Source: a virus. From it: 24,826 nt of DNA. Location: positions 1 through 24,826 of the IMG/VR virus record IMGVR_UViG_3300021964_000497. One strand, written 5' to 3'. The notes under the pieces are model-generated. The model did no database searches. It was not told the DNA's origin and was given only the letters and a program-made list of their open reading frames with translations. How positions within the stretch are numbered: the stretch's first letter is position 1; each line of letters opens with the position of its first letter. The position numbers and the translations under genes were made by a program. Below, one piece after another: positions 1 to 16,986 of this stretch.

Positions 1-988
1 AACTTCCTGGTGATCCTGTTGTCCAATCAATACTAAATCTAAAATCTCCCGTTCCTGGGTCTGCAGCAGTTGTGGAACTATCGAAGTTGTATGTAATGCC
101 ATAAGCATCAATACCAGAAGTACCTGTAGTACCTTGAACACCCTGAATACCTTGGATTCCTTGAATACCTTGGATACCTTGGATACCTTGGATACCCTGA
201 ATACCTTGAATGCCCTGGATTCCTTGAGCACCATCTGTTCCTTGAGCCCCATCTGCTCCTTGAGTTCCAGTAGTTCCCTGAATACCTTGAATGCCCTGGA
301 TTCCTTGAGTTCCAGTAGTTCCCTGAATACCTTGTGGACCGGCAGATTCAAATGCAGTGATAGTTAAAACATCACCAACGGCCGCCCCAGATGTCAATAC
401 AACACTTGTTCCATTAGTAGCAGTGAAATCATCTGGGTCTAAGTGGGAACCATTAAGGAAAACATCAAGATTTCCAGCAGAATATGCTAAGGTATTTGTA
501 TTATCATCTGCTCCACTAAAAGTTGTTTGATTCGCAGTTGCAGTATAAGTAAATGAAGACCTAGTGAAACTTGAGCCTTGGACACCCTGAATACCTTGGA
601 TTCCTTGAGTTCCAACTGTAGATGGGTCTACCCAATCAGTTCCTGTTGCTGTTGACTTGAGAATATAACCACTAGTTCCTGAATCATTATTGGAATCATA
701 AAATGCGCCAGTAACTTTTAAATCACCATTAACATCTAGAGCTACCGATGGTTGTGTAGAACCAATACCAATATTTCCTGCAGTAAAATATGCGTTATAA
801 CTATCAGTTCCTGTTCCTACCCTAAATGGGTTGATGACAATAACTGTTGTTCCAATACCTACATTTTTGGATGCGTAGAGATATCCGTCGTAAGTGTTGA
901 GAGCTACTTCTCCTAGTGGCAGCTGCCCCGGGGTCGGAATTTTGCCATATACAGCCGACCGTTTTAGCTTGATTATTGGATCTGCCAT
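1..988 (-). CDS. Collagen-like tail fibre / virion protein, partial (C-terminus beyond left edge)
   Basis: The frame opens at ATG 988 and stays open to base 1, giving 329 visible residues. The N-terminus (MADPIIKLKRSAVYGKIPTP, then LGEVALNT and GYLY) resembles that of the 530-residue protein at 1292-2884 and looks like a virion-attachment module. Next come a beta-rich stretch (GNIGIGSTQP, LDVNGDLKVTG), a short collagen-like run near 568-606, and a module of a type common in phage fibres (FSGADDN, LDVFLNGSHLDPDDF, then GTSVVLTSGAAVGDVLTI). About 25 Gly-X-Y triplets follow (113-340), nine of them consecutive Gly-Ile-Gln. Collagen-like triplets in phage fibres usually form trimeric shafts, so the receptor-binding tip probably lies beyond the window. 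A CATAAATA late-promoter-like site lies 52 bases upstream. No strong ribosome site precedes the ATG (AAAAG only). The fibre role is inferred from architecture; the exact fibre type is unknown. Confidence 0.85.
   Translation of the reverse strand, partial: MADPIIKLKRSAVYGKIPTPGQLPLGEVALNTYDGYLYASKNVGIGTTVIVINPFRVGTGTDSYNAYFTAGNIGIGSTQPSVALDVNGDLKVTGAFYDSNNDSGTSGYILKSTATGTDWVDPSTVGTQGIQGIQGVQGSSFTRSSFTYTATANQTTFSGADDNTNTLAYSAGNLDVFLNGSHLDPDDFTATNGTSVVLTSGAAVGDVLTITAFESAGPQGIQGTTGTQGIQGIQGIQGTTGTQGADGAQGTDGAQGIQGIQGIQGIQGIQGIQGIQGIQGIQGVQGTTGTSGIDAYGITYNFDSSTTAADPGTGDFRFSIDWTTGSPGS
113..340 (-). repeat. Collagen-like Gly-X-Y repeat tract
   Basis: About 25 consecutive Gly-X-Y triplets, read on the minus strand. 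Nine Gly-Ile-Gln units at 140-220 are 9-base tandem repeats with only third-position changes. Longer exact direct repeats are nested in the tract: a 33-base unit at 257-289 and 302-334, and a 34-base unit at 195-228 and 276-309. Both offsets (45 and 81 bases) are whole numbers of collagen triplets, so unequal recombination or slippage would keep the frame. Confidence 0.9.
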
Positions 989-1016
989 CTTTTAAGCGTC
1001 TATGTAGTCATTTCTA

Positions 1017-1030
1017 CCAGTATATACTGG
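1017..1030. repeat. 14-base perfect palindrome upstream of tail fibre
   Basis: CCAGTATATACTGG is a perfect inverted repeat (7 + 7, no loop). It lies just downstream of a late-promoter-like octamer and upstream of the tail fibre start at 988. It could be a protein-binding site. As RNA it would form only a weak hairpin, since a loop would have to open the central TATA. It also falls inside a 13-codon mini-ORF (992-1033). Function is unknown. Confidence 0.5.
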
Positions 1031-1039
1031 CATTTTTAA

Positions 1040-1047
1040 TATTTATG
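1040..1047 (-). promoter_or_regulatory. T4-like late promoter CATAAATA (tail fibre)
   Basis: CATAAATA on the minus strand differs from the T4 late consensus TATAAATA only at its first base. It contains the TAA stop codon of the 66-residue gene (1043-1045). By T4 late-promoter geometry (octamer about -13 to -6) transcription would start near 1034, giving a leader of about 45 bases for the tail fibre gene. Confidence 0.6.
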
Positions 1048-1243
1048 CGAAATCTCCTGCGTCTTTAGTTGTTCTTTTTGTCTTTGGTAACTTTGTTTCT
1101 AGTTCTGCAATAGTTTTATTAAGACCTTCAATAGTTTGTCTATACTTTAATTCTCTTGCTTCTAAAGCAATATTTTGATTAATAGCATCAAAATATTTGT
1201 TCTGATATATTGCAATCAAATTCTTATAATCCTGTTCATCCAT
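1043..1243 (-). CDS. Small coiled-coil protein, 66 aa, unknown function
   Basis: A short acidic-to-basic protein. Residues about 20-52 look like a coiled coil (ALEARELKYRQTIEGLNK, then IAELETKL). The tail is lysine and threonine rich (PKTKRTTKDAGDFA). It has no signal peptide or membrane segment. It lies between two fibre-like genes, so a role in fibre assembly or as a minor virion part is plausible but not shown by the sequence. The ATG at 1241-1243 follows directly on the U-tract of an intrinsic terminator and has no Shine-Dalgarno sequence at normal spacing. No in-frame alternative ATG exists. A TCTAAATA site at 1270-1277 may supply its own transcript. Similar small coiled-coil proteins occur among cyanophage hypothetical proteins, but I cannot name a family. 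Confidence 0.75.
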   Translation of the reverse strand: MDEQDYKNLIAIYQNKYFDAINQNIALEARELKYRQTIEGLNKTIAELETKLPKTKRTTKDAGDFA

Positions 1244-1270
1244 AAAAAAAGAGGGAGATTAACTCCCTCT
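1244..1270 (-). terminator. Intrinsic terminator after the 530-aa fibre-like gene
   Basis: On the minus strand an 8-base perfect stem (AGAGGGAG with CTCCCTCT, 1263-1270 with 1250-1257) closes a 5-base loop and is followed by seven T residues (1250-1244). This is a textbook factor-independent terminator, 21 bases after the stop of the 530-residue gene and abutting the start of the 66-residue gene. Confidence 0.88.
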
Positions 1271-1277
1271 ATTTAGA
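1270..1277 (-). promoter_or_regulatory. Late-promoter-like TCTAAATA overlapping the terminator (66-aa gene)
   Basis: TCTAAATA on the minus strand, 14 bases after the stop of the 530-residue gene. Its last base is the first base of the terminator stem. By T4 late geometry the start point falls near 1264, inside the stem, so a transcript begun here would lack most of the 5' arm and could not fold the terminator. Confidence 0.5.
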
Positions 1278-1291
1278 TTATATGGTGGATA

Positions 1292-2884
1292 TTAGAAGGA
1301 ACCGCCATCAATTGTTGCGTTTGTGATTACAATCGTGTTGCCATCACATCCAATTACTTCATCAGTTGTGCCACTGCAACCAGAGACATACAGAGAAGCA
1401 ACTTCTAATGCACCACCAGTGTTATTGGTCAGAACTCCAGAAGATTCTGAAACATCTGCGGAAACAACAACTCTTGAAGTACTATCATCCCAGTAAACAC
1501 CTGCTTTTTTAGCAGAACCGGAATAATAGTTGAACAGAACACCAATGTCCTTATTTAGGTCAGATGATGGCGCAGATCCATCAACCATACCAAGATCAAG
1601 AAGTTGGTCTTCAATGGTTGTCTGAGAAGTATTAACCTGCGTTGTTGAACCATTGACATAAAGATTTCCAGCAACAGTCAAGTTCTGAGCAAGTTCAACA
1701 GCACCAGTGCTATCGGTAATTGTAATAGCGGCAGTGCCATCATTTGCCTTAACAGCAGATGCTTGAACGGTTGGAGTTGTTACTGAAGTTGTAACTGTAA
1801 CAGCAGAAGGAAGACCAATTGTTACTGTTTGACCAGAAGCAGATGTTTCAATTTCGTTTGCAGTACCTGCAATAGTTAGAGATTGTGAATCAAGATCTAC
1901 AGCACCAGTTCCAGAATCTCCAGCAACATCAAGATCTTGAGCGGTTACTTGAGAATCAACATAAGATTTAATTGCCTTTGCTGATGCTAAGGTATCATCA
2001 GAAGAAGAAACGGTGGAAAGATCAGTATCAACCGAAGTGATTGCAGTTCCGCTACCAAATGTAGTATTGGTTATTGTTGCATTTGTAATCGTTGCGGTTG
2101 CTACTGTAGCTGCTGTAGCAACATTAATATTATCTAACTCAACAACACCAGCAATATCGTGCGTTGCTCCATTGACATCCAGAGAACTTGTTACTGTAAG
2201 AATGCCAGCAATAGTAACATCATCAGGTAGACCAACCGTTACAGTTCCATTTGATCTAGAGACATTAACCTCGGCATCAGTTCCAGCAATCGTGAGAACA
2301 GCACCACTAGCACTATCAGCAAGAGTTACATTTCCAGACGAAACTGAAAAATCTCCATTATCAAATGATGCAACACCCTTATTAGAGTCTGTTGCATCTT
2401 CTGCAGCAATAGTGATTGTATTATCACTTACTGTGGTGTCAATGGCTTCCCCACCAGTAAAGGTTAATGTATCGGTTAAAAGGTTAACAGTGTCATCAGA
2501 ACCAGAATCAGCACCAACTGTTAAAGTAGCTACTGCATCAATGAATGATAGAGTTCCAGAACCATTTGTGGCAAGAACCTGATTATTACTACCATCTGTC
2601 CCTGGCATTGTATATGTTACAATACCCGCAAGACTATCAGGTGCTTTGAGGGTGATGAAAGAAGTACCGTTATCAGTGCCTTCTACTAAGTTAACTCCAC
2701 TGCCAACTGTGGCAGAGTTAATTGACCAATATCTACCAGATCCAACAAATTGATTATTTGCTGTTGTAGAATCGATGCCGACATAAAGATCATAACTGTC
2801 GGTAGTAAAGCCTGGTTCACCTGCCCTCAGTCCAGGGAGATTGCTAAGGAGGCCTCTCTTAAACTGAATTACGGGAGCCGCCAT
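1292..2884 (-). CDS. Fibre-like virion structural protein, 530 aa
   Basis: The N-terminus (APVIQFKRG, then LPGLRAGEPGFTTD and LYVGID) resembles the N-terminal attachment domain seen in several phage fibres and in Mtd-type tropism proteins. The body is Ser/Thr/Val/Gly rich and very low in Cys, Trp and Met, as in beta-helical or beta-prism fibres. Two internal copies of an LTIAGT...TVT-GLP unit lie near 2213-2310 and 1795-1880. Near the C-terminus comes a block of a kind familiar from cyanophage fibre-like proteins (LYVNGSTTQVNTSQTTIEDQ, then NKDIGVLFNYY and KKAGVYWDDS). The last residues are DGGSF, echoed in the two short proteins just upstream. A TCTAAATA site precedes the gene and a strong terminator follows it. 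The receptor-binding role is inferred; it could also be a whisker or head decoration. Confidence 0.85.
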   Translation of the reverse strand: MAAPVIQFKRGLLSNLPGLRAGEPGFTTDSYDLYVGIDSTTANNQFVGSGRYWSINSATVGSGVNLVEGTDNGTSFITLKAPDSLAGIVTYTMPGTDGSNNQVLATNGSGTLSFIDAVATLTVGADSGSDDTVNLLTDTLTFTGGEAIDTTVSDNTITIAAEDATDSNKGVASFDNGDFSVSSGNVTLADSASGAVLTIAGTDAEVNVSRSNGTVTVGLPDDVTIAGILTVTSSLDVNGATHDIAGVVELDNINVATAATVATATITNATITNTTFGSGTAITSVDTDLSTVSSSDDTLASAKAIKSYVDSQVTAQDLDVAGDSGTGAVDLDSQSLTIAGTANEIETSASGQTVTIGLPSAVTVTTSVTTPTVQASAVKANDGTAAITITDSTGAVELAQNLTVAGNLYVNGSTTQVNTSQTTIEDQLLDLGMVDGSAPSSDLNKDIGVLFNYYSGSAKKAGVYWDDSTSRVVVSADVSESSGVLTNNTGGALEVASLYVSGCSGTTDEVIGCDGNTIVITNATIDGGSF

Positions 2885-2910
2885 CTTCTTTAATTTACAT
2901 TACTTTTTAC

Positions 2911-2918
2911 TATTTAGA
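2911..2918 (-). promoter_or_regulatory. Late-promoter-like TCTAAATA (530-aa gene)
   Basis: TCTAAATA on the minus strand begins directly after the TAG stop of the 79-residue gene. The predicted start is about 21 bases upstream of the ATG at 2884. The rest of this 34-base gap is AT-rich and holds only a weak AAAGAAG ribosome-site candidate. Confidence 0.55.
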
Positions 2919-3158
2919 CTAAAAACTTCCTCCATCATATCTGAAGTTTGAACCTTCTCTTGGTTCAACTTCGACTTCCAACTGGTCTACAAAAGAATCA
3001 TCAATATCTCCGTCTTCAGCAGATACAGATAATGCAGTGTCAAATGGTATTAAATCGAATTTGTCACTGGTTGAATTGTATCTCATAATATAACGATTTT
3101 TTGCTGCTGTAAGTGGAGCAACATCCAAATCAACAAGATCTCTAAGTCTAGTTGCCAT
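2919..3158 (-). CDS. Short virion-associated protein, 79 aa, paralogue of the 107-aa neighbour
   Basis: An acidic protein with no recognised family. Residues about 24-79 align with the C-terminal half of the 107-residue protein just upstream: both have Y-S-x(3)-KF-x-L, then AL, a D-DI-DSF core, QLE and a terminal GSF. The C-terminus FRYDGGSF also matches the end of the 530-residue protein. The ATG overlaps the upstream stop by one base (TAATG). It has one of the clearest ribosome sites here, AGGGAG at 3165-3170, six bases from the start. It probably works with the fibre-like proteins, by context only. Confidence 0.75.
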   Translation of the reverse strand: MATRLRDLVDLDVAPLTAAKNRYIMRYNSTSDKFDLIPFDTALSVSAEDGDIDDSFVDQLEVEVEPREGSNFRYDGGSF

Positions 3159-3481
3159 TAGAAACTCCCTGCATCGATGTCTCCTGCTTGAACTCTACCA
3201 AAATCCAACTCGTCTTCCAACTGAGTTATAAATGAATCTTCAATATCTGCATCTGACGCTGATTGGAATAATGCCTCATCTGGAGTTGATAATACAAATT
3301 TATTGGTGGCACTGTCATATGTAACTAATAAACCATCTTTTGTTGAATCTAATGTTCCAAAATTAGTATCTCCCATTTCAGCAGCAGCTGATGGATTACG
3401 AACAGATCTAATTGACGGTTTGGTTATTCTTGATTTTTTTGTTATTGTATTTGAAGTTGTTACTTTTCTAACTACTGGCAT
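3158..3481 (-). CDS. Short virion-associated protein, 107 aa, basic N-terminus
   Basis: The first 30 residues are basic and Ser/Thr rich (VRKVTTSNTITKKSRITKPS). The rest is acidic, with a Y-DS-A-NKF-L block, a D-DIEDSFI-QLEDEL core and the C-terminus GDIDAGSF. The acidic half is paralogous to the 79-residue protein that follows and overlaps it by one base. It starts two bases after the stop of the 112-residue gene and has no obvious Shine-Dalgarno sequence, so translation may be coupled. No known domain is recognised. Location in the fibre cassette suggests a structural or adaptor role, but this is inference. Confidence 0.75.
   Translation of the reverse strand: MPVVRKVTTSNTITKKSRITKPSIRSVRNPSAAAEMGDTNFGTLDSTKDGLLVTYDSATNKFVLSTPDEALFQSASDADIEDSFITQLEDELDFGRVQAGDIDAGSF
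3165..3170 (-). promoter_or_regulatory. Ribosome binding site AGGGAG (79-aa gene)
   Basis: AGGGAG on the minus strand, six bases before ATG 3158, inside the last codons of the upstream gene. It supports an independently initiated 79-residue gene despite the one-base overlap. Confidence 0.6.
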
Positions 3482-3483
3482 GA

Positions 3484-3822
3484 TTATGTTGTAGTAATGC
3501 CTGCTTCTACCAAAGCCATCCCCTCTACCAATCTAGAAACTGCACCTGAAGGAGATTCTAAACGAACATCATATTGATATCTTCCTGGAGTTAGTCCAAC
3601 TGTAACTCCACTTGTCATGGCAATTGATACTTCTCCAGTAGATCCTGTTATTGAAACTGAAAATGATGTGGATGATGTAGAACTAAAATGTTTTTTTATT
3701 CTAGCAGTTCCAGTATAACCAGCAAGGTTTGATGCAGAACCATCACTTTCGGTTGAAGTGAAAGTTTCTCTAAAATCCGCACCTTGAGGAATAACTATAT
3801 TAATAACAGGATTTGCTGCCAT
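3484..3822 (-). CDS. Beta-rich virion protein, 112 aa (Ig-like/BppU-type fold suspected)
   Basis: The pattern IPQGADFRETFT, then LAGYTGTARI, GEVSIAMTS and PGRYQYDVRL is typical of small phage tail or fibre-base proteins with a beta-sandwich (for example the N-terminal domain of BppU-like baseplate proteins). In that pattern a QGADF strand is followed by an L-GYT turn and a G-Y-YDV strand. It has no signal peptide or Cys. It follows gp16 by 13 bases and has its own ACTAAATA site, which overlaps the gp16 stop. An AAAGGA lies only two bases from the ATG, which is tight. It is the first gene of the cassette where T4 would have gp17. The fold is inferred from sequence pattern; function is unknown. 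Confidence 0.75.
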   Translation of the reverse strand: MAANPVINIVIPQGADFRETFTSTESDGSASNLAGYTGTARIKKHFSSTSSTSFSVSITGSTGEVSIAMTSGVTVGLTPGRYQYDVRLESPSGAVSRLVEGMALVEAGITTT

Positions 3823-3835
3823 GATCCTTTTTTAA

Positions 3836-4273
3836 CTATTTAGTCTCGTCTTTATCTATATTGCTATTCTTCAAAAGTTTTGATAATTCTGCAGTAGAAC
3901 CAACAAAGAGAGCATTGGTCACATTAGTTGGACCTTTAGTATGGGTTTCTTCTTCAACATCTTTAAGTTTCTTTTGCAACTCCATTAACTTATCCGTAGC
4001 ATCAGCCACATTTTTGATTAATTGACCAGCAACCTCATATGCTCTAGGCATTTCACTCTCTTGTGCTAACTCAAGAATTCCATTAATTGCTTCTTGTCCC
4101 TTTTCAATAATGGAATATAAATTACCTCTCGTATATTCATAATCTTTTTTTATATCTTCCACAGAAGAAGTAGAAAGATTCTTTGGTTCTTCTTTTACTG
4201 GATCCGTAGAAACGATGTCTGCAGCAACATCAAAAGTTTCATTGAGTTCATCAAAATTTTTTGTCATTTTCAT
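3836..4273 (-). CDS. 16: Small terminase subunit gp16, 145 aa
   Basis: The small terminase subunit recognises viral DNA and stimulates the gp17 packaging ATPase. T4 gp16 is 164 residues, so the length fits. Key similarities to T4 gp16 are an acidic N-terminal region followed by DYEYTRGNLYSIIEKGQEAI (T4 has a DDYGVVRRN block), a central helical pair with SEMPRAYEVAGQLI (T4: SPRHMEVFATLM), a probable coiled coil DKLMELQKKLKDVEEE, and a C-terminal TKG...N-TNALFVGSTAEL (T4: NATVFMGSPTEL). The central helices are the usual oligomerisation part. It follows gp15 by seven bases, as in T4. Two ATGs are possible: 4273, or 4267 two codons later, which has a better-spaced AGAG ahead of it. The expected partner gp17 is not in the window. 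Confidence 0.88.
   Translation of the reverse strand: MKMTKNFDELNETFDVAADIVSTDPVKEEPKNLSTSSVEDIKKDYEYTRGNLYSIIEKGQEAINGILELAQESEMPRAYEVAGQLIKNVADATDKLMELQKKLKDVEEETHTKGPTNVTNALFVGSTAELSKLLKNSNIDKDETK
3837..3844 (-). promoter_or_regulatory. Late-promoter-like ACTAAATA (112-aa gene)
   Basis: ACTAAATA on the minus strand overlaps the final Thr-Lys codons and TAG stop of gp16. The predicted transcript start is near 3831, about nine bases before ATG 3822, so the leader would consist of little more than AAAGGATC. Confidence 0.5.
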
Positions 4274-4280
4274 TTCTCTA

Positions 4281-5282
4281 TCAATAACTTACACTGAAAC
4301 CAAAATCGTCTCCATCTTGAATGAGTGCATCGTCCGCATTTGTAATGGACTTAATCGCTTCCCCTTTAACATGTTTGGTTGGAGTTGTCTTATCTTGCCC
4401 TCTTTTAACCTTGATACTATCAGTGAGAACATCAAGCACATACAATTCCTCACCATCCAGTTCAATGTATGTATTTTCTGTAATTGTGGAAGGATCTGCA
4501 ACCTTGAATAAAACATCGCCAACTTCAATGTCTTGTTCAAGAGTTGTGAGAACTGTTCCTGTGTAATTCTTAATTGCTCTTGGTTCAACAGCATATGTGA
4601 GATCTCTTTGTGGAGTTCCTGTTCCAGTAGATCCAGCAACATATCCAATAGATACCTTTTTGACAATATCGGAATTTGCAGAAGAAACAGGGCCAAACAA
4701 ATAAGTCTTTGCACTAAACCTTAAAGTGTATACAAGTGCTCTCCGTGTAGAGAAATCTCCCTCATAATCATCATTCATACTAATGCTTTCAAGAGTAACG
4801 GGAATATCTCTTTTTTCGCCAATAGATTCTACCAAATTGACCGACATCGTATATGCGGGTTGAAAATATGGTAAAATTTGCTCAATGATTTGAAGCATAT
4901 CATCATTTAACTTGGTCATAATAGCCAATTCAAACTCCATATTATATGGAACTGGCATATATGCAGTTTGAATTGAAGTCTTATCAGATGTAAGTGCTTT
5001 TTTAAACTTTTGAGTTTGCGTTACTTTTCTCGACGGGTCATATGTAAGACCAATAAACTCAAAGGACATTCTTGGTAAAGAAAGAGAAACTGATTTATTC
5101 AGTTCTGGTTGTTGAGTAATTCTTGCCAAGAATTTTTGCGTAGGGCCATATGCCAAAGGAACTCTAAACTGGTTATTTACATTTCCAGAAGAATCTTCCT
5201 GTTTAATTTCTATATCATTAAACAGAGAACCGAATGATATAATGGTTCTTCTAAAAATTTCGTTATAAAAATATTCAAACAT
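4281..5282 (-). CDS. 15: Tail sheath stabiliser / tail terminator gp15, 333 aa
   Basis: T4 gp15 caps the finished tail and joins it to the neck. Residues 1-28 (MFEYFYNEIFRRTIISFGSL, then FNDIEIKQ) match the T4 start MFGYFYNSSFRRYATLMGDL closely. Other shared blocks are the RVP-AYGP/RVPITYAS region, LPRMSFEF, and a near-identical QI-EQILPYFQP motif at about residues 130-145. T4 gp15 is 272 residues. The extra length is a C-terminal module from about residue 239 (DIEVGDVLFKV, ELDGEELYVLDVL, VKRGQD, KHVKGEAI), also found in both giant proteins of this window. It lies between gp14 and gp16 as in T4. A CATAAATA site in the 35-base gap upstream suggests its own late transcript. No clear Shine-Dalgarno sequence precedes the ATG. 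Confidence 0.93.
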   Translation of the reverse strand: MFEYFYNEIFRRTIISFGSLFNDIEIKQEDSSGNVNNQFRVPLAYGPTQKFLARITQQPELNKSVSLSLPRMSFEFIGLTYDPSRKVTQTQKFKKALTSDKTSIQTAYMPVPYNMEFELAIMTKLNDDMLQIIEQILPYFQPAYTMSVNLVESIGEKRDIPVTLESISMNDDYEGDFSTRRALVYTLRFSAKTYLFGPVSSANSDIVKKVSIGYVAGSTGTGTPQRDLTYAVEPRAIKNYTGTVLTTLEQDIEVGDVLFKVADPSTITENTYIELDGEELYVLDVLTDSIKVKRGQDKTTPTKHVKGEAIKSITNADDALIQDGDDFGFSVSY

Positions 5283-5306
5283 TGGATCGGTTCTTTGTTT
5301 AACTAT

Positions 5307-5314
5307 TATTTATG
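5307..5314 (-). promoter_or_regulatory. T4-like late promoter CATAAATA (gp15)
   Basis: CATAAATA on the minus strand, three bases after the gp14 TGA stop. The predicted transcript start near 5301 gives a leader of about 19 bases for gp15 and, downstream, gp16. Confidence 0.6.
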
Positions 5315-5317
5315 GGC

Positions 5318-6733
5318 TCAGGGCATACCGAATGGATTTCTCTCACTGAAGTCAATAATACTATCTGCTTCACTCTCTATTTCTTCATTTGATGTGAATC
5401 CTGTTTCTGGATAAGACGCGGAAGAAAGTTTGTAACTTGCTGAAGAAGCAGAACCAACAATTTGCTCTCCAACAACAAAGTCTCCATCTGCTCGGTAGAT
5501 TTCTAGCGATCCTCCATCGGCAACCCAATTGAGAACTCTTGCTGTAGAACCAGAAATAGAACCAGTAACAATTTCGTTCTTCTGGAAAGTTCCAACTCCA
5601 GTTTGATTTGGTGCTGCAATTGTAATAGTTGGTGGTTCAGTGTATCCCAGACCAGCATTGGTGAGATAAATTGCACTAATTGTTCCAGCAGCACTAACAA
5701 CAACTGTTGCAGCTGCAGAAACTGTTGAAATTCCACTGAATGTTACGAGTGGTGCAGTTGCTGTCGTATAACCAGAACCTCCACCGGTAATAGTGACAAT
5801 TCCAAGAACACCATTGCCAATGGACGCAGTTGCAGCAGCTCCAACACCATCACCGATAAACCTAACTGAAGGAGCAACTGTGTAACCAGAACCTGGATTT
5901 GTAAGAAGAACTCTTTGAATAGATTCTGCAACCGGATTTGCGTTGAGTTCGCAGGCAACAATTCCAGAAATTCTCTCCGCAGTTGCTATTCCAGTTACAC
6001 CTGGAGATGATGAGATTGCGACTCTTGGATTGTAAGTATATCCACCGCCACGGTTTGTGACACTAATTTGTCTAATGCCACCATCAGAAATATATCCTAC
6101 AGTTGCTAATGCAGTTGTTCCAACCCCAACAAGAGTTAGGAGTGTTGTCATTGCATCACCACCTAGGAGTTCCGAATCAGAAGCACCTAGAGTTCCCGCA
6201 ATAGAATCATCAATTTCAGCAACATCGGTATCGATAACTTCGTTTTCGTATCTGAAGAGTTCACACTTCAGTGTATATACGTATCCTTTCTGTAACTGAT
6301 AGAATGGTTTTTCGTGCTCTACAAATTTAATTTCAAATAATCTATCTCCAAGTGGGAAATAAATTAGGTCACCTTCTTTAGGTCTATTGCTAATTTTTAT
6401 ATTATCTTTTCCTGCTAAAAGTGGAGAAATATAATTCTCAAATCTTTCTTTTGAAATTGTAAGAGTTATTTCTTGAGTTGATTGAATTCCAAATTTAGAT
6501 AAAATTGTTGTTTGATCACCATATCCCTCAAAGTTTTCTACATATGCTTCAATTGGATGGGCCTCATCAAACTCAGATTCAATAACTTCTCTAATAACAG
6601 TTTTTTCTGTAATAAATTTTCTGGGCATGTAATGAACTTCAACTCCGTACATACGAAGTTGTTCATTAATTAAGTCCTGAATCAGATTCTGTTCTGATGG
6701 AGCACCTTGAAGAAAGAAAGGATTTAATGCCAT
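5318..6733 (-). CDS. 14: Neck protein gp14, 471 aa, with inserted GYT repeats
   Basis: With gp13, gp14 closes the filled head and docks the tail. The N-terminal 165 residues (MALNPFFLQGAPSEQNLIQD, then QLRMYGVEVHYMPRKFI, EGYGDQTTILSKFGI and ISKERFENYISPLL) follow the pattern of cyanophage-type gp14. T4 gp14 is only 256 residues. Most of the surplus is four tandem GYT repeats of about 40-50 residues (roughly 5595-6075) and a GE-x-I/SGS module (about 5405-5590). The C-terminus returns to a conserved-looking IDFSERNPFGMP. The chosen start is ATG 6733, four bases after the gp13 stop. A TTG at 6745 would add four residues and overlap gp13, but gives no better ribosome site. Translation is probably coupled to gp13. 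Confidence 0.9.
   Translation of the reverse strand: MALNPFFLQGAPSEQNLIQDLINEQLRMYGVEVHYMPRKFITEKTVIREVIESEFDEAHPIEAYVENFEGYGDQTTILSKFGIQSTQEITLTISKERFENYISPLLAGKDNIKISNRPKEGDLIYFPLGDRLFEIKFVEHEKPFYQLQKGYVYTLKCELFRYENEVIDTDVAEIDDSIAGTLGASDSELLGGDAMTTLLTLVGVGTTALATVGYISDGGIRQISVTNRGGGYTYNPRVAISSSPGVTGIATAERISGIVACELNANPVAESIQRVLLTNPGSGYTVAPSVRFIGDGVGAAATASIGNGVLGIVTITGGGSGYTTATAPLVTFSGISTVSAAATVVVSAAGTISAIYLTNAGLGYTEPPTITIAAPNQTGVGTFQKNEIVTGSISGSTARVLNWVADGGSLEIYRADGDFVVGEQIVGSASSASYKLSSASYPETGFTSNEEIESEADSIIDFSERNPFGMP
5595..6075 (-). repeat. Four tandem G-x-GYT repeats within gp14
   Basis: Four copies of a pattern I-x2-I-x-[IL]T-x2-G-x-GYT-x2-P-x-[VI]-x-[IF] occur in order: GGGYTYNP near 6040, GSGYTVAP near 5885, GSGYTTATAP near 5765 and GLGYTEPP near 5640. 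Spacing is 40-52 residues. Each is followed by a Gly/Ala-rich turn (GVGAAATA, TVSAAATV). The same motif occurs in gp8 and both giant proteins. Confidence 0.85.
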
Positions 6734-6737
6734 AATA

Positions 6738-7592
6738 TCAACCAATCATATCAAATGGAGGAAGTTCATATGTATTTGACATCTTCTCCATTATTTTTTC
6801 TAAGTCTTTTTCTGCATCATCATACATTTGTCTACCATTCAATTCAACACCACCTGGAAGTTTAACTCCAGTAAACTTCATCATATTCATTCCCCATTGC
6901 CTCTTAATTAAAGCAGTGAGATATGGTTTGATGAATGAATCATTCCAAACTCTTGCATAATCATTTGGATCTAATGTTGAATGACATTGGATAATGAGAT
7001 AATCGTCGGCATTAACAGAACCCCAATCAAGATCCAAATATAATCGGTCTTGTCGCTTATTAAATCGTATTTGTTTATCAGTTGTCAATAAGAAATTGAT
7101 ATCTTCCAAATATGTCTTTGTCATTGCATAGGTCAACATCTCAGTTGCTCCCCAGTAGTAGATATCATTGAGGAACATTTGATATCTAACACTGAACATA
7201 TTGTTCGTTACTGTATTTGTCCCATCAAAATGAAACAACTTAGTAACACCAATTATATTTGGTGGAACTTGTAAATAATTGCTATTTTCTTCAAAGGTAA
7301 AGGTGGTGGCAGAACTATCTCCTGCGATTGTTACTGATGCTGTAGTGGTTGCGATACCTACTGCAGTATTACTTCCACCTCTAGTTCTTCCCCTATCAAT
7401 ATCACTTTGAGTAATTTTATACTTATAATATGTTTCGTAAACCCCATCAAAATGTCTTTCTTGGAAAAACTGAATGGCGTCATCTACCAAATCATCAATT
7501 TGCTCATCGGCTACATTGATTTCGAGAACAGGATATCCAAGTTGTCTTTTGCAGTAGTCTATTAGCTCCTGCCTAGTAGATGGTTGTGCCAT
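6738..7592 (-). CDS. 13: Neck / head completion protein gp13, 284 aa
   Basis: gp13 joins the portal to the tail after packaging, together with gp14. T4 gp13 is about 309 residues, so this is near full length. The N-terminal block (RQELIDYCKRQLGYPVLEIN, then ADEQIDDLVDDAIQFFQERH and KITQSDIDRG) fits the family, whose hallmark is an acidic helix ahead of the DAIQFF motif. A Gly/Thr-rich insertion at about residues 72-100 (TRGGSNTAVG, TTTASVTIAGD) precedes a conserved-looking core (LQVPPNIIGVTKLF, YYWGATEMLTYAMTKTYLED) and a C-terminus ending in YELPPFDMIG. A strong ribosome site AAGGAG (7603-7608) lies ten bases before the ATG, with an ACTAAATA site just upstream. gp14 follows after four bases. 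Confidence 0.92.
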   Translation of the reverse strand: MAQPSTRQELIDYCKRQLGYPVLEINVADEQIDDLVDDAIQFFQERHFDGVYETYYKYKITQSDIDRGRTRGGSNTAVGIATTTASVTIAGDSSATTFTFEENSNYLQVPPNIIGVTKLFHFDGTNTVTNNMFSVRYQMFLNDIYYWGATEMLTYAMTKTYLEDINFLLTTDKQIRFNKRQDRLYLDLDWGSVNADDYLIIQCHSTLDPNDYARVWNDSFIKPYLTALIKRQWGMNMMKFTGVKLPGGVELNGRQMYDDAEKDLEKIMEKMSNTYELPPFDMIG

Positions 7593-7602
7593 TTACACAT
7601 TT

Positions 7603-7608
7603 CTCCTT
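7603..7608 (-). promoter_or_regulatory. Ribosome binding site AAGGAG (gp13)
   Basis: AAGGAG on the minus strand, ten bases before ATG 7592. It is the best match to the anti-Shine-Dalgarno sequence among the gene starts here and supports the chosen gp13 start. Confidence 0.65.
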
Positions 7609-7615
7609 ATACTGA

Positions 7616-7623
7616 TATTTAGT
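7616..7623 (-). promoter_or_regulatory. Late-promoter-like ACTAAATA (gp13-gp14)
   Basis: ACTAAATA on the minus strand contains the TAA stop of the 76-residue gene (7619-7621). The predicted start near 7610 gives an 18-base leader that includes the gp13 ribosome site. Confidence 0.55.
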
Positions 7624-7849
7624 CTTGTTTTCTTGCCAGGTCTAGCAAAAGAGACTTAATTTCATTCAAATCATTTTTAATATCGTTGACATCAGTTTCA
7701 AGTTGTTCAACTCGTTCTGCTTTTGAAGCATTTTTCTTTCTTGCCTTCATATATTCATCATACTCAGACTTGCTAGTATTGAGTATTGCATTAGTCCGAG
7801 GATCCCTGACTAAACTCAGGTGATCCTTTACTTTTACATATTCTTTCAT
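7619..7849 (-). CDS. Small coiled-coil protein, 76 aa, unknown function
   Basis: A charged protein with a likely coiled coil over residues about 43-72 (AERVEQLETDVNDIKNDLNE, then IKSLLLDL), showing regular Leu/Val/Ile heptad spacing. The N-terminus (MKEYVKVKDHLSLVRDPRTN, then AILNTSKSEYDEYM) looks like a short folded segment. It starts two bases after the stop of the 2504-residue gene without a clear ribosome site, so translation is probably coupled. Its position just before gp13 corresponds to the T4 gp12/wac region. Fibritin (Wac) is also a coiled coil, but far longer, and I see no specific similarity to it. Small proteins of this type are common in cyanophage structural clusters; function is unknown. 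Confidence 0.78.
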   Translation of the reverse strand: MKEYVKVKDHLSLVRDPRTNAILNTSKSEYDEYMKARKKNASKAERVEQLETDVNDIKNDLNEIKSLLLDLARKQD

Positions 7850-7851
7850 AA

Positions 7852-10800
7852 TTATGCGAGAGCGATAACTCTAAGATCTCTAAGAGAAGGTGGATATGAT
7901 TGACTCGTGGAAGTCATTACAAGTTTAATTCTAAAGTGCTTGAATGATGGAAGATTATCTCTCGTAAATGTAAAGTCTTGGAAAGAATCGGCTATTTCAC
8001 CAACAGTTGCCTGAATCAACTCAACATATGAGTCAGATCTTCCATTACAATCTTCAAGATTGATGATTTCTCCTCTATCATTAAGATTATCCCATCCTGG
8101 GAATGGAACAAAGATTGGGTCAAATCCAGAATCATTACCAATGGCATAAAATGCTCTAATATCTGTGTATGGATTCATATGAGCAGAAGTAATGATCTTA
8201 ATTGAAGTTGCTGCATTCTCAAGACCCATCTCTTTGGAGATGTACTGGAACGAAGAAGGATCTCCTTCAATACCAGAAACTCTTGAGTCTGTTGCAAAAT
8301 CTTCAATAACACTATTAACTCTATTTGAAGTCAAAATCGCACTAACTCTTTGGCCGTCAATTACTGGCGACAAGCGAGTATCCGTAGTAGATAATTGAAC
8401 ACTCATATTAAGTGCTTTGTTTCCGGGAAGAGCAGTTAAAAGATTTGATGAATTCACATCCGAAGTAATAATTCTTGTGGATGACAGATAATTTGGTTTG
8501 TTCAGAGAAATTGATTCAAAACCATTATCAAGGAATGGAATTTCATTTCCACTTAAACTCTTACCAGTTACTGTTCTGATTGTTGCTGAAATATTAGTTC
8601 CTTCTGGAGTAATATTTTGAACAATGGGTGTAATAATTTCATAAGGCATATTTTGTGTTGCCTTAATGCCAAATCCACCAGTGGACTTGTTCTCCTTCAC
8701 AAACAGTTTTGGCCATCCAGATGCGGCAGTTCTATCTGCACCATCGGCAGACATATCAATCTTCAATCTATAGTGATCATAACCGATTGAATCAGCAACA
8801 GTAGAATCTGCGAGTTCATGCGACTTATTAATTCTTCTGAGAGAAACTCCATTAAGTTCATATCTATAAACAGGAGTTCCAACTGGATAATCTTTAGGGT
8901 CACTGCCTCTAGTAATTGTTCCACCAATAGAACCAGAAGTTGCAGTTGTAAATCCAATAATCTCATCACCAATCAGAAGATAACCAACATTTGTAGTTCC
9001 AACGCCAACACTCTCAAATTGTTGGAACAAACTGCCATTATCTACGGAAAGTGCTCCAGTAGAATCTGCAGTATATGCTGTAGTCAATTTAGTTGGTTTT
9101 GTATCTGGCGCGACCCCAGAAATAGTAACTGTGTTACTATCATCATACATTCCATGATTCTTATGGTTGACTTTAAAATGAAGACCATCAGTTTCAACGG
9201 CAATTTCTGTTGGTCTTGGCCATGGACCAATAGGACCACCAGAAGAATAATTTAATGTTGTTGTGACACCAGAATTATTAATAAACTGAATCGTATTACC
9301 AACACCAGTGAGGAAGTCTCCCTGGACATTATCAAGAATCAGTTCACTGCTGCTTCCGATAGATGTTATAGAAAGTCTAGCTCCAGCACCAAGATTATTA
9401 GTTCCAATGGTAGTGATTCCTAAAACATCACCAACTTGATAACCAGAACCACCGCCAGATGGAGTTGAAATTGTAGCAAATCCGATAGTTCCATCGGAAG
9501 TTACTTGAACATTTGCTGTGGCATTTCTACCATTTCCAGTTACTGTAGTGAGAGCAACACCAGTATATGTAAATGGTCCAGTGTAACCAATACCAGCATT
9601 GATTACATTCATATTTCCAACAGCAGTTCCTGCAGTTCCTACGAAATTAGCGGTAGCATCTGAACCAATCTGAATAATAGTATTACCAATTGTCAAATCT
9701 GGATCATTAAATGTCGTGGAAAGGCCAACTCTAATCTTCTTAGAGTTCATAGAAAGCGCATTGCCAAGAAGGGTAGGAATTTGACCATTACCCTCTTTAA
9801 GTTGTGGATTATAAAATTCTACAGATCCATTTTCAATAAAGTCTGCTCTGTAGAGAGTAAACTTAAGATCTTCCCACTGACTTGGTTCCCAAGTAGATGC
9901 ATTCTGAGATTTGAATAGTGAACCAAGATATGGTTGATTGGAAATAAATGTATCAGTAAGAAGGTCATTTTCACCAACTCTTGAAACATATACGCTGTAC
10001 TTAGTAGAGTTTGATGCAACACAGATAGCATAATCTGTTCCTCTACCCTCTAAGTAAACTGGTGCTTTAAACTCAAAAGTAGTTGCAACAGAACCATCCG
10101 CAGAAAGATTAACCTGATCTGGGTCTAAAGTTACCTCAGAGAATGGTAGAATCTTTTGAGTTGGCAGACCATTATTCATGGTCCTGATTTGGAGAGTTAC
10201 TGGAACATCTGAATCATCTTTTGATCTAAAGAAGATATCACACTTGGTGAGATAAATTCCAGTATCATCATCAACCAAGAAGGATTGTGCAAGGGGATCA
10301 TACCAATAGTGGACTCTTTGTTGAACTGGAGTTCTTCCAATTACGCGACTATTAACCAACTGGGTTCCAGTTGTTCTAGAAACTGCTTGATCTTCAAATT
10401 CAAGTTTGTTTTGAATTCTAGCATTTCTTACAGAAACGATATTTTCTTGAACAGCCTCGATAGTTCCACTAGATACATATCCTTCCTCTGCAATTGTTGT
10501 TGCAGTTTCTTGATTATTGGTGCTGCTGTTAACAAATGTGAGAACTCTTGTTCCTGCTTCAAATCTTGGATTCGTGCTTACATTTGGATCAGGAATAAAG
10601 AAACTACCTTGAAGTGTTGAACCAATGTCAGAGATAAGTTTTACATCCGTGATTGTTGCTTGAGCTCCACTAGTTTTGCCAACCAGAGTCATGTTTCTCT
10701 CAACATAACCGAAGAAATCGCCTTGTGGTTGATTTGCAAGAGAGAATGTGTCCACATTAAGGATCGTGGATGTTGACGAATATGCTTCAGGTAATGGTTG

Positions 10801-13800
10801 TGAGTTATATGGGCTAAGACGATATACTCTATCTGGAGAATCATATTGTCCAGATTTATGGTTTGCCTGAGCAACTCTGAATGTAATTCTTGGGGAATTT
10901 GCATTAGAAGGTCCAGTTCCCGCATTTATTACGGAACCGACAACAGTTTCTCCGACTTCAAAAGTCCCCGAGGTCATGGAAATTTCCAGTAATTTAGGTA
11001 CACAGAACTTAGTTACATTAGCACTATCAAAGAATGCATAAAGTCTTGTGAGTGGTTTGAGTTTTTTAGCTTCAAATTGAACATTTCTGGACCTCATATA
11101 AGGAACAACATTTCTACTTACAACTCTGTCTCCTACAGACTCTCTATCAAAATGTTCAGTAACAATAGTTCTAGATCCAGTTCTGGACATTACTCCAGTA
11201 TCTTTTACTTCCCTATAAGTTTCTTCAATAACATCCGCATTGACATTTTGTACCCAAGTTCTATAAATGTTTCTATTTCCAGGACCTTGACGATTTACAG
11301 ATGTGGGAACATTTGTTGTTCTGGTTCTCGTTGTTTCAGTTACTTCTTTACCTGTCCAGTTGGTTTCCCAGGCATTCCAAATCGTTGGGGCAAAACCTGT
11401 CTGTGGATCAACGCCCTGTTCCTCAACAGCTCTTGCCATCACATTTTCATAATCACCTTCAACATCAATAATTTTTGCTTCAAGTCTTACAGTATCTACC
11501 CAAGTATCAGATGCTGGAGTCAATTCAAGGGTTCCTTGCCAGAAACTTACCAAGAAAGGAGTTACACTTTCAGTTCTTGTGGCAAATGATTGTCTAAGCC
11601 ACTCAACATCAGCATAGTCTAGAGTAATAATATCATTAGACTTTCTTACATTGACGCCTTCTGGTTGCTCAACTGAAAAATCAGCACCGGCATTTACATT
11701 TACTACTGGGCCCTGAATCAGATCAATTGCATTTGTATAGTGCTGTGGTCTTAAAGTTTTTAACTCAGCATCTAAACTATTTCTAAATGGAACTGATTCT
11801 TCTTGTGCGTTCAGAGATGTAAAATTATCAACAAAGAATCCTGACTTGAATCTATTAAGACCATCTCTATCGGGAACAAAGAAGTTTGCAGTATTTGTCT
11901 CAAGCAGAGAAAGTGCAGTATAATACTCAAGATTTCTAATTCTATTCTCAAGATTCTTGATATCGGACATGCGATATCTCTTATGTTGTAAGAAATCTAA
12001 TTTGACCTGAGAAGTATCGTAAAGATATGGTGGAAGAGTAACAGTCGCTATTTCAATAGCATCATCAACAGCCAAAGGTCTTTCAATCTTTTCAGATGGA
12101 ACACCATATTGAACCTGGAATTTGCCAGATTGAGTTAAGAAAATTCTATCAATTCTTGGAAGATAGAATGAGAATGATACATCAAATGCATCATCAGAAG
12201 AAAGTACGCTTGATGAATTTCCTGCCCCATTAAATGCTCTTCCATAGAACTCAAATGGTGATCTTGCACCCTCAGTTACAGTATAATCAGAAGTTTTTGG
12301 CCTAATATCAATAATATCAGTGTTTCTATTTCCATCAACAGATCTAACATCTTTTACATAATCAAATTCACTGTATGAATTAGTGGTGATTATGTCTCCT
12401 GTATCTGCTGCTTCAAAATAACCATTAGTGAAATATACTTTCAATTGTCTAGTTGGAGCATCAATACCATCTTTTCTTACTATAGAGGAACCGCCATAAA
12501 ATGATCCTCTCTGTCCAGTGCTGAACTTAAAGTTTTTAGATATATTAAAACTTGGTTCATCTACAACAGAAACAGTAGCATCAAGTCCTGTTTCGCCAAA
12601 GGTAACAGTCTCCCCTTCAATAAGAGAGTTGGTATTTTTTGGAATATATGAAATCTTGGTATCGGTTAATTTTTCCGCGACTACACCAACAGCACCACTT
12701 GTAAGTCCTCTAAATTTTTCACCAATCAAGAGATCACTTGTCTTTCCTTGGGGGCCAGAGAGAGATGCCAAAATAACAGTCGGAGCAGATGCTGGAGAAG
12801 TATCTGTAGATTCATAGATTGCTTGAATGCTAACAACATCACTAACATTTAAAGAAATTCTTTCATCTTGAACTCTTGTTCCAAACGCATAATTTCCATA
12901 TGTGAGACCATCATTAAGTGTTGTTGCGCCAACACCAGAAGCAACTAATTTTGACTTATCAACAATAACAGAATTTACTCTATTTTTCTTCTTTTTCTTA
13001 GCAACTGGTTTGAGTTTTTTGACTGTATAGATTAACTGTGCTCCAGTGTCATCACTTCCCAGGTTATAAATTTGAAGTTCTGTATTATTATTTGCAAGAG
13101 CAAGTTTATTTGCGGCCAATACTTCTGTAGATCCATCAGATCTAACAAGAGAGTACCGCTCTTCGTCAAATGGTAAGAATGTTTCATTTGTACCAGAAGT
13201 AACCACAGCAGATAGTTCATTATCTACGATGTCTACTGTCGCATACTTTCTAAGAGTGATGAATGAATCATTCAATGTAAGAGAAGAAACATTCTCTTTA
13301 GGCAACGCTGTATACAGAGTACTATCACTTGATGTTGATAACTTAGTTCCAAGAACTTTAAAATCGGTTACTTCAATTCTTGATCCAGTTGTTGGGAGTC
13401 TTCCTTCGCAAATTCCAGTGACAGTTGTAACGCCGGAAATAACAATACTTGCATCATTGACCGTTTGAACAGTAGCAAAAACCGGATCTGTAAAACTTTG
13501 ATTGACATCAGTACTCGTGTAACTGACAAGATCACCAACGCTAACTAATCCGGGGAACTGTGGGTTTGCTGAGATTACTGTGCTTTCTCCACTAGCATTT
13601 ACAGTGGAAATTGTGGCGATACCAATTGTAGATTCAGTTGAAGGAATAACATCAGCAGCAAAGGTCGTTCCTACTCCAACTTTACCATAGATGGATTGAA
13701 CATCAGATAGTCCATAAGAAGTGATTGCTGTAGCAACTCTTCCATTTTCAATACCATCAAACTCAAACCCTTCATATCTAATAAAATCGCCAGAAGTCTC

Positions 13801-15366: not shown

Positions 15367-15372
15367 AATTCC

Positions 15373-16929
15373 TTAGAATTGTAATATAACCTTGATGTCT
15401 TCTTTTTGATTGGTTGATCTTGTCACAGATGGTCTATTGTCAACATAAATGATGTTTCCAGAGTATTTTGCAACCTCAGGGTTTGCAATTCCATTAGTAA
15501 ATGATTGACCAAGGTAGAATGTTCTATTATTTATTACGGTTGATACACCCGTAAAAGTACTATCAATGGATAAACCTTCAGCGACAGTTCCTCCAATAAT
15601 TTTCAGAGAACCATCTCCAGTCGGTGATGAAGTAAAATCAACTTGATCAAATCCATACTGCGGATTTGTAATTGCAGCACCAACAGTATTGAAACCAGAT
15701 TGTGATCTATCTTGCCATACTTTTAAAACTCCAGTAGATTGATCGTAACTTACAACCCTAGCAACAGCAGTAGTTCCAGTTGAAACTGTTTGTGTTACAA
15801 ATGAATCAGCATCATAACTAGCAGAACTATAACCAATTCCAGTCAATCTAAGGGCAGTTACCGCACTTGCTTTATCTGCGGTAAGAGGAGTATTTGTTCC
15901 AAAAGTGTTCGGTTTTTCTACAATACCAACTCTTGCAATTTGATTTCCTGTAACAAAGTCGGGATTTTGAATGTCATTCTCAAATCTAGAGTACATGAGA
16001 ACATTTTTTGCTCCCAATTCTCTATAAATGTCTGCTCCATGGCCACCCTGCGGAGAAATGATGACATCAAAGGTTGGTCTTGTAGTTCCAGTTGGAACTC
16101 CACCAGCAACTAAATCTATATTGCCATAAGTATATCCCGAACCTTGAGATGAAACTACAATAGATGCAACTTGGGAGTCGGCATTAATCGTAATTGTACA
16201 CTCCGCACCTGTTCCGTTTCCTTTGATTGGAACATTAGTGTAGACTGCATTTGCAGTTCCTAGTGCTACACCTCTACCGGTGATAACTACCGTTTTAATT
16301 GATCCATCTACAGCATTATCCCGAACAGATGCATTTGTTGTTGAATCTGCCCAGTCAGATGGAACAGGAATATAATTTGTAGAATCAAACTTAACAATGT
16401 CTGCTGGCGCAATAGTGTACAAATACTTCCAAATATATCCGTCTCCGCTAGAACCAGCAGCCCTTGGTTCTAAGTCTACAAATGTTGGTTCATCAAGAGA
16501 TGGAGCTCCATTTGGAGTCTCTGGAGTTGTTCCGTTCTGAAGGCAAACATAAACTCTATAGTCACTGTTCATTACATAAAATGATGCCCCATAAAGATTA
16601 GTTGCTCCAGATACTTTCGCAGTATTTGAAGTGTTGTAATCATGACGATACATGTCAAATGTATTGCCAGATTTCCACTCGATTTTTGGAACTACTAACC
16701 TTACATCACTACTCGTAATTTTTTTCAGTCCAATCATGGTCTCCCAGATTTCATTCTCATTATCAAAATTATCTACAGGAGATGGAGGACTGTTATCCCA
16801 ATTTGACTGAATATCGGTAGCGTTTGGCAGTCCAATAAAAGAGTAATAAGAACTACCAGAAGTAGTGATGCCGGCAAGAAAATTTCTTGCATTCAATATT
16901 CTAATTTGATCAGTAATTATTGCGGCCAT
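15373..16929 (-). CDS. 8: Baseplate wedge protein gp8, 518 aa
   Basis: gp8 is a baseplate wedge subunit. Similarity to T4 gp8 is clearest at the C-terminus (NIIYVDNRPSVTRSTNQKED, then IKVIL) against T4 MIYMENRPPIIMAMDQTEEI-NILF. It is also visible in the N-terminal third: EIWETMIGLKKI-SSDVRLVVPKIEW against T4 DMWTHMMGTVKV-PSMLDAVIPRRDW, and GDGYIWKYLYTI-PADI against GDGYVWEYLFEI-P. T4 gp8 is 334 residues. The extra 180 or so lie between these blocks and include one GYT unit (GSGYTYGNIDLVAGG, near 16120) and a GE/SGA-like unit (TTAVARVVSYDQSTGVLKVW). Two late-promoter-like sites precede it in the largest gap of the window. No clear Shine-Dalgarno sequence is seen. Confidence 0.93.
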   Translation of the reverse strand: MAAIITDQIRILNARNFLAGITTSGSSYYSFIGLPNATDIQSNWDNSPPSPVDNFDNENEIWETMIGLKKITSSDVRLVVPKIEWKSGNTFDMYRHDYNTSNTAKVSGATNLYGASFYVMNSDYRVYVCLQNGTTPETPNGAPSLDEPTFVDLEPRAAGSSGDGYIWKYLYTIAPADIVKFDSTNYIPVPSDWADSTTNASVRDNAVDGSIKTVVITGRGVALGTANAVYTNVPIKGNGTGAECTITINADSQVASIVVSSQGSGYTYGNIDLVAGGVPTGTTRPTFDVIISPQGGHGADIYRELGAKNVLMYSRFENDIQNPDFVTGNQIARVGIVEKPNTFGTNTPLTADKASAVTALRLTGIGYSSASYDADSFVTQTVSTGTTAVARVVSYDQSTGVLKVWQDRSQSGFNTVGAAITNPQYGFDQVDFTSSPTGDGSLKIIGGTVAEGLSIDSTFTGVSTVINNRTFYLGQSFTNGIANPEVAKYSGNIIYVDNRPSVTRSTNQKEDIKVILQF

Positions 16930-16947
16930 TTTGCTGGGGTTTTTACT

Positions 16948-16955
16948 TATTTATT
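16948..16955 (-). promoter_or_regulatory. Late-promoter-like AATAAATA (gp8, proximal)
   Basis: AATAAATA on the minus strand, with the predicted start about 13 bases before ATG 16929. It lies between two AAACCCC copies (16935-16942 region and 16957-16963). Confidence 0.5.
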
Positions 16956-16966
16956 AGGGGTTTAAT

Positions 16967-16985
16967 AACTAAATTTTATTTAGTT
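16967..16985. repeat. AT-rich inverted repeat overlapping a late-promoter-like site
   Basis: AACTAAAT and ATTTAGTT form a perfect 8-base stem with a 3-base loop, two bases after the stop of the giant upstream gene. No T-tract follows on the minus strand, so it is not a convincing terminator. The minus-strand octamer ACTAAATA (16977-16984) spans one arm and runs into the loop. Confidence 0.5.
16977..16984 (-). promoter_or_regulatory. Late-promoter-like ACTAAATA (gp8, distal)
   Basis: ACTAAATA on the minus strand, two bases after the TAA stop of the giant gene. The predicted start is about 42 bases ahead of gp8. Together with the site at 16948-16955 it gives gp8 and the 2504-residue gene two candidate late promoters. 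Confidence 0.45.
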
Positions 16986-16986
16986 G

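Follow-up and report, generated by a model that had tools for sequence, protein, structure and literature searches.

The window analysed here, that is, the whole stretch of 24,826 bases, is an IMG/VR contig of an uncultured virus and represents a fragment of a T4-like cyanophage. The genes near the site at 1244-1277 are all located on the minus strand and their products are structural proteins of T4-like cyanophages, the neighbours including a terminase small subunit, a tail sheath stabiliser and tail-fibre-like proteins; the same gene order is found in Synechococcus phages RB11-B, S-B43 and S-B05. The site itself is the gap between the gene for a 530-residue protein, which is probably a late gene, and the gene for a 66-residue protein, for which only a Pfam match under the cut-off and no PHROG was found (Table 1). 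The otherwise different 530-, 79- and 107-residue neighbours have a C-terminal DGGSF or DAGSF in common (1292-1310, 2919-2940 and 3158-3175, minus strand), and the small protein of RB11-B ends in GDGGTFE, a resemblance that points to a shared C-terminal tag.

Table 1. Genes and signals at the site (positions in the window, except for the last line, which refers to phage RB11-B)
Feature	Position	Strand	Remarks
Upstream 530-residue gene, structural or tail-fibre-like	1292..2884	minus	PHROG 697 structural protein, 18186 baseplate wedge
Sigma70-like -10 hexamer TATAAT, perfect	1282-1277	minus	overlaps late motif; no good -35
T4-type late-promoter motif TCTAAATA	1277-1270	minus	last base is stem base 1
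Terminator 5' arm AGAGGGAG	1263..1270	minus	occupies promoter -6 to +2
Predicted late start (+1), six bases past motif	1264	minus	by analogy with T4 late promoters
Loop TTAAT	1258..1262	minus	sequence and folding
Terminator 3' arm CTCCCTCT	1250..1257	minus	sequence and folding
U-tract, seven T	1250-1244	minus	directly adjoins start codon (1243)
Downstream 66-residue gene, coiled-coil-like	1043..1243	minus	start codon ATG 1243-1241
Homologous gap in RB11-B, motif AATAAATA	about 122,378-122,409	minus	

Read 5' to 3' on the minus strand, the gap consists of TAATATCCACCATATAA-TCTAAATA-GAGGGAG-TTAAT-CTCCCTC-TTTTTTT-ATG. Positions 1270-1263 pair with 1257-1250, which gives a stem of 8 bp, 5 of them G-C, closed by a loop of 5, and the last A of the promoter motif (A1270) forms a pair with the T at 1250, where the T-run begins. 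The GC-rich stem, the short loop and the U7 directly 3' of the stem are those of an intrinsic terminator, and the combination of an 8-bp stem containing 5 G-C pairs with an uninterrupted T-run occurs nowhere else on the gene strand within bases 1-20000. The octamer upstream is of the late-promoter type TATAAATA, here in the form TCTAAATA with the core TAAATA, and its overlap with the stem is exactly as described in an earlier note on this DNA, in which a terminator stem at 1250-1270 was said to begin at the last base of the octamer. There is no Shine-Dalgarno sequence between the stem and the AUG; in the family the stems run into U6-U8 and then the AUG, and about 7 nt separate the hairpin from the AUG, which places the end of the hairpin within the footprint of the ribosome. 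A search of Rfam with positions 900-1400 of the window produced no match.

All hairpin energies given here are predictions. The region as a whole folds at -14.0 kcal/mol, compared with a mean of -6.5 kcal/mol for shuffled sequences (z = -3.35), none of the 200 shuffles being equally stable; the value for the read-through RNA is -13.9 kcal/mol. In T4 late promoters the octamer occupies positions -13 to -6 (PMC1524935), and therefore +1 is predicted at 1264, the distance being borrowed from T4 and not from a cyanophage. The predicted fold is -13.2 kcal/mol for an RNA that starts at 1270, -8.2 for 1267, -4.5 for 1266, -1.2 for 1265 and 0.0 from 1264 onward. Given that the hairpin is essentially abolished for starts at 1265 or further downstream, the predicted escape of new RNA would hold even if the true start were one base upstream of 1264 or any distance downstream of it. 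The proposal of the earlier note that initiation about six bases downstream of the motif deletes most of the 5' arm is thus supported, at T4 spacing, by the predicted change from -13.9 to 0.0 kcal/mol; the TATAAT that overlaps the motif, a start from which (near 1270) would retain the whole hairpin, had been missed.

In 10 cyanophage genomes summed, with T4 and the window left out, TAAATA is found within 60 nt 5' of 362 of the 1607 predicted gene starts, as against 43 for its reverse complement TATTTA, and other permutations of its letters are likewise less frequent upstream of genes. TAAATA is thus a gene-upstream, strand-biased signal in these cyanophages, lying in the sense orientation expected of a late promoter. 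Within the window, TAAATA stands before structural genes and occurs without a hairpin before other genes (2916-2911, 3842-3837 and 5312-5307). CTAAATA has been proposed as the late consensus for phage Aeh1, the first letters being variable in S-PM2 (PMC1524935). Altogether, the evidence that TAAATA acts as a promoter at the site is good but indirect.

One usual, although not strictly defining, property of T4 late promoters is an AT-rich segment 3' of the motif, which is AT-rich because it melts (PMC2988020); here the corresponding bases are GAGGGA, and across the family the six bases 3' of the motif have a mean A+T content of 38%, compared with 70% for TAAATA before ATG in the ten cyanophages. 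A G-rich or C-rich arm in this place probably costs promoter opening or strength, and its retention despite that probable cost suggests that the hairpin is worth it.

The conservation of the overlap in relatives, a check proposed in the earlier note, was examined by comparing the 60 nt that precede the start codon in 121 homologues of the 66-residue gene, drawn from phage records and IMG/VR contigs; these homologues are mostly from uncultured contigs and include many close relatives. Given that the protein alignment of the entire family was too divergent for a scan of the collection, a subfamily alignment was used instead. Among the 88 distinct leaders, 83 retain TAAATA. In 72 leaders a nested stem that includes 4 or more G-C pairs starts at offset 0, +1 or +5 from the end of TAAATA, and a U-tract accompanies it in 67 of these 72. 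Most flanks read TCTAAATA, T and C being favoured at positions one and two. At T4 spacing, 81 of the 83 promoter-bearing leaders are predicted to form a read-through hairpin at -5 kcal/mol or better that is gone from the RNA starting at +6, the median predicted fold over all 83 being -13.9 kcal/mol for the read-through RNA versus 0.0 kcal/mol for the +6 RNA.

The conserved position is accompanied by a highly variable sequence. Six unbroken pairs directly 3' of TAAATA are present in 73 of the 83 leaders and are built from 21 different 5' arms, GAGGGA, CACCCA, CACCTA, GTGGAA and CGCATA among them; the stems of the family include AGAGGGAG, AAGAGGGTA, AGGGGGGAG, AGTGGAAGTA, AAATACACCCAG, AAATACACCTAG, AAATAGACCCA and AAATACGCATAG. 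When distinct arms were tested for pairing with their own 3' side, 22 of 26 did so, whereas 500 shuffles gave 11 on average and never more than 14. Thus, the stem is locked in position to the promoter while its sequence turns over with compensating changes. Counts of stem changes on the family tree, namely 45 in fine classes and 9 switches between G-rich and C-rich arms, are indications only, with the tree based on approximately 66 columns and poorly resolved. An invariant promoter combined with a variable but paired stem fits selection on the overlap itself, since conservation of position under compensated sequence change is the pattern that such selection would be expected to leave. The TATAAT is not conserved in relatives, where CATACT, CATAGT, AAGTTC and others are located before the motif.

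We also considered that TAAATA might be conserved as an A-tract complementary to the U-tract. This idea was rejected for the +1 class, in which TCTAAATA is not an A-run; in the +5 class AAATA pairs with TATTT, so that it is partly true there.

Several leaders depart from the common layout. In two distant members, L039 and L421 (phage DSL-LC02), the stem is located six bases past the motif, so that these are the only promoter-bearing leaders in which a +6 start would retain the hairpin; in L421, the stop codon of the upstream gene forms part of TAAATA. The promoter is lost altogether in 5 of the 88 leaders. In L024, L029, L030 and L462, both promoter and terminator are absent and the start codon follows the stop codon by a few bases (TGATATTATG, TAAAATATG); in these cases the gene seems to have become part of the upstream operon. 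Two other leaders, L033 and L015, have lost the stem and retain the T-run before the ATG, and the pyrimidine-rich leader may itself contribute to translation, the gene having no Shine-Dalgarno sequence. Finally, the clade of L034-L038 has a promoter-nested hairpin, TGATAAATAGGGGAAG...CTTCCCCATATG (GGGGAAG...CTTCCCC), directly before the ATG and without a U-tract.

The nested arrangement is not limited to this gene family. In the 10 cyanophage genomes, 11 of the 1530 occurrences of TAAATA (7.2 per 1000) carry a terminator at the nested offset, two of these 11 being overlapping motifs at one S-SM1 site and two belonging to the family of the 66-residue gene; among 13 permuted control hexamers, not including the overlapping ATAAAT, the count is 30 of 28,772 (1.0 per 1000), so that nesting is about 7-fold commoner for TAAATA. 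The unrelated sites include those at the gene for a 702-residue protein of S-SM1, a P-SSM4 gene, a putative PDDEXK nuclease gene of S-PM2 (a weak match), the endonuclease VII gene of RB11-B, and others. Given this excess over the controls and the conservation in the homologous gap, the overlap of promoter and terminator is, as judged from sequence comparison, more than a product of chance. An unrelated gene of S-SM2 (L324:140, about 140,113) resembles L034-L038 in having its promoter nested on a GGGGAAG...CTTCCCC hairpin immediately 5' of the ATG, again without a U-tract. Because there is no U-tract in these cases, termination cannot be the function of the hairpin there, and in sequence they look like translational gates of the T4 gene e type in cyanophages.

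Applied to T4, the scan identified gene 49, which encodes endonuclease VII (T4 46,885, minus strand), with the same offset as in the homologue of RB11-B (L231:8648-9091, minus strand; RB11-B about 29,118). At both genes, as at the site in the window, the end of TAAATA is stem base 1 and a T-rich stretch is followed by ATG; in gene 49 the T stretch differs in being weaker (TTTATT). The regulation of T4 gene 49 was reportedly assigned to translational control by Barth et al. in 1988. When the endonuclease VII of RB11-B was used as the query, distant relatives only were recovered. The layout shared by cyanophage and T4 would reflect control of a dangerous nuclease that is either conserved or has arisen by convergence.

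A close characterized counterpart is T4 gene e, where the late promoter is embedded in the 5' arm of a hairpin in the leader; late RNA is therefore unable to fold the hairpin, and early read-through RNA can (PMC3014915). As at the site described here, the late promoter (TATAAATA) is located in the DNA of the 5' arm, and late RNA escapes a structure that the longer read-through RNA does not. However, the gene e hairpin acts on translation by masking the ribosome binding site, with no U-tract or termination described, whereas here a U-tailed intrinsic terminator is found and no Shine-Dalgarno sequence is hidden. In the homing endonuclease genes I-TevI, I-TevII, I-TevIII and segB of T4 and mobE of Aeh1, the late promoter is likewise placed such that late RNA avoids an inhibitory structure (PMC2988022), with control again translational, by sequestration of the ribosome binding site, unlike the site in the window. 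Thus, of the two properties of the gene e and I-TevI gates, removal of the 5' arm by the late start is predicted here and sequestration of a Shine-Dalgarno sequence is not found. The usual cyanophage layout is seen in the gaps after gp23, where a strong U-tailed terminator and TCTAAATA are also located between late genes, but in tandem, the promoter following the U-tract with zero shared bases; the nested form is a compact alternative to it. A literature search for late promoters nested on terminators, with most subscription journals outside its coverage, returned the translational cases of T4 only. The geometry is known from T4, and a U-tailed terminator as the effector is a new variant.

Geometry, predicted energetics and comparative evidence support the interpretation offered in the earlier note, and we consider it probable that the site is a self-excluding terminator, at which read-through would be terminated and newly started RNA would escape. 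The -6 to +1 segment of a gp55-type late promoter would also serve as the 5' stem arm of an intrinsic terminator. A polymerase arriving from the 530-residue gene would transcribe both arms and the U-tract and be released, as the sequence suggests, while one started at the promoter would begin at about 1264, within the arm, if the T4 start distance applies. The RNA initiated there would be without six of the eight bases of the 5' arm, would form no hairpin and would continue into the 66-residue gene, whose late transcript would have a leader of 21 nt. The promoter and terminator would together uncouple two neighbouring late genes within 34 bases.

The main rival to termination is a translational gate in the style of T4 gene e and I-TevI, acting alone or as a second layer, in which the hairpin before the AUG would block ribosome loading on read-through RNA and translation would be confined to late RNA, from which the 5' arm is removed, termination being secondary or absent. 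This T4 precedent of a late promoter in the 5' arm of a hairpin was missed in the earlier note, as was a possible additional translational role of a hairpin that precedes an AUG without a Shine-Dalgarno sequence. The same geometry is established for gene e, I-TevI and others (PMC3014915, PMC2988022), the identical offset recurs at T4 gene 49 and its RB11-B homologue, L034-L038 and the S-SM2 gene combine promoter and hairpin without a U-tract, and the distance of the hairpin from the AUG would suit a gate. However, the U run found directly 3' of nearly all nested stems would be superfluous for a pure gate, the T4 stems sequester a Shine-Dalgarno sequence of a kind not found between stem and AUG here, and the upstream gene looks structural and is probably late, so that early read-through is a less obvious problem. 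Such a gate appears rather unlikely at this site, and termination is favoured because the U-tract is so regularly present in the nested hairpins and adjoins the stem.

Two further explanations dispense with the escape of new RNA. An ordinary terminator might have a 5' flank that reads TAAATA by chance, with no promoter present and the 66-residue gene served by partial read-through: terminators come after stop codons (TAA) and commonly have an A-rich 5' flank, and the spacing of the motif in L039 and L421 would not spare new RNA. This scenario, which we regard as improbable, has to be reconciled with the retention of TAAATA in nearly all leaders and the preferred T and C before it, with a flank that is no A-tract and, in the majority of members, lies outside the stop codon, with the rarity at the nested offset of control hexamers, those beginning with TAA included, and with the hairpin-free TAAATA before other genes of the window. 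Alternatively, the gene could attenuate its own transcripts, with sigma70-type initiation from TATAAT near 1270 retaining the terminator and damping the output. The -10 hexamer is perfect, the RNA that starts there keeps nearly the full predicted stability, and L039 and L421 would act in this manner; however, with the hexamer not conserved in relatives, no good -35 and the late motif being the conserved part, an attenuator is highly improbable.

A broader proposal is that self-excluding terminators are a recurrent module of T4-like phages that evolved at several unrelated genes, with the geometry held by selection, and that they use the 5'-arm removal known from T4 to switch between termination and elongation; we consider the case for this generalization evenly balanced. 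If the site does act as a self-excluding terminator, the arrangement would be about the most compact gene insulator possible, with start and stop signals sharing bases and the origin of the polymerase deciding which of them acts, and dense phage genomes would have a way to set independent levels of neighbouring late genes. It would also account for a gap that is conserved and yet variable in sequence in a widespread group of marine and freshwater cyanophages, would make termination and translational gating two uses of a single trick of T4 phages, and would provide a 34-base insulating part for synthetic circuits.

The gap on the 3' side of the 66-residue gene contains a late motif as well, CATAAATA at 1047-1040 on the minus strand. 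Between this motif and the tail-fibre gene, the leader contains CCAGTATATACTGG (1030-1017, minus strand), a perfect palindrome and thus a leader hairpin, which a +6 start would retain. In RB11-B another palindrome, ACACTTATATAAGTGT, occupies this place.
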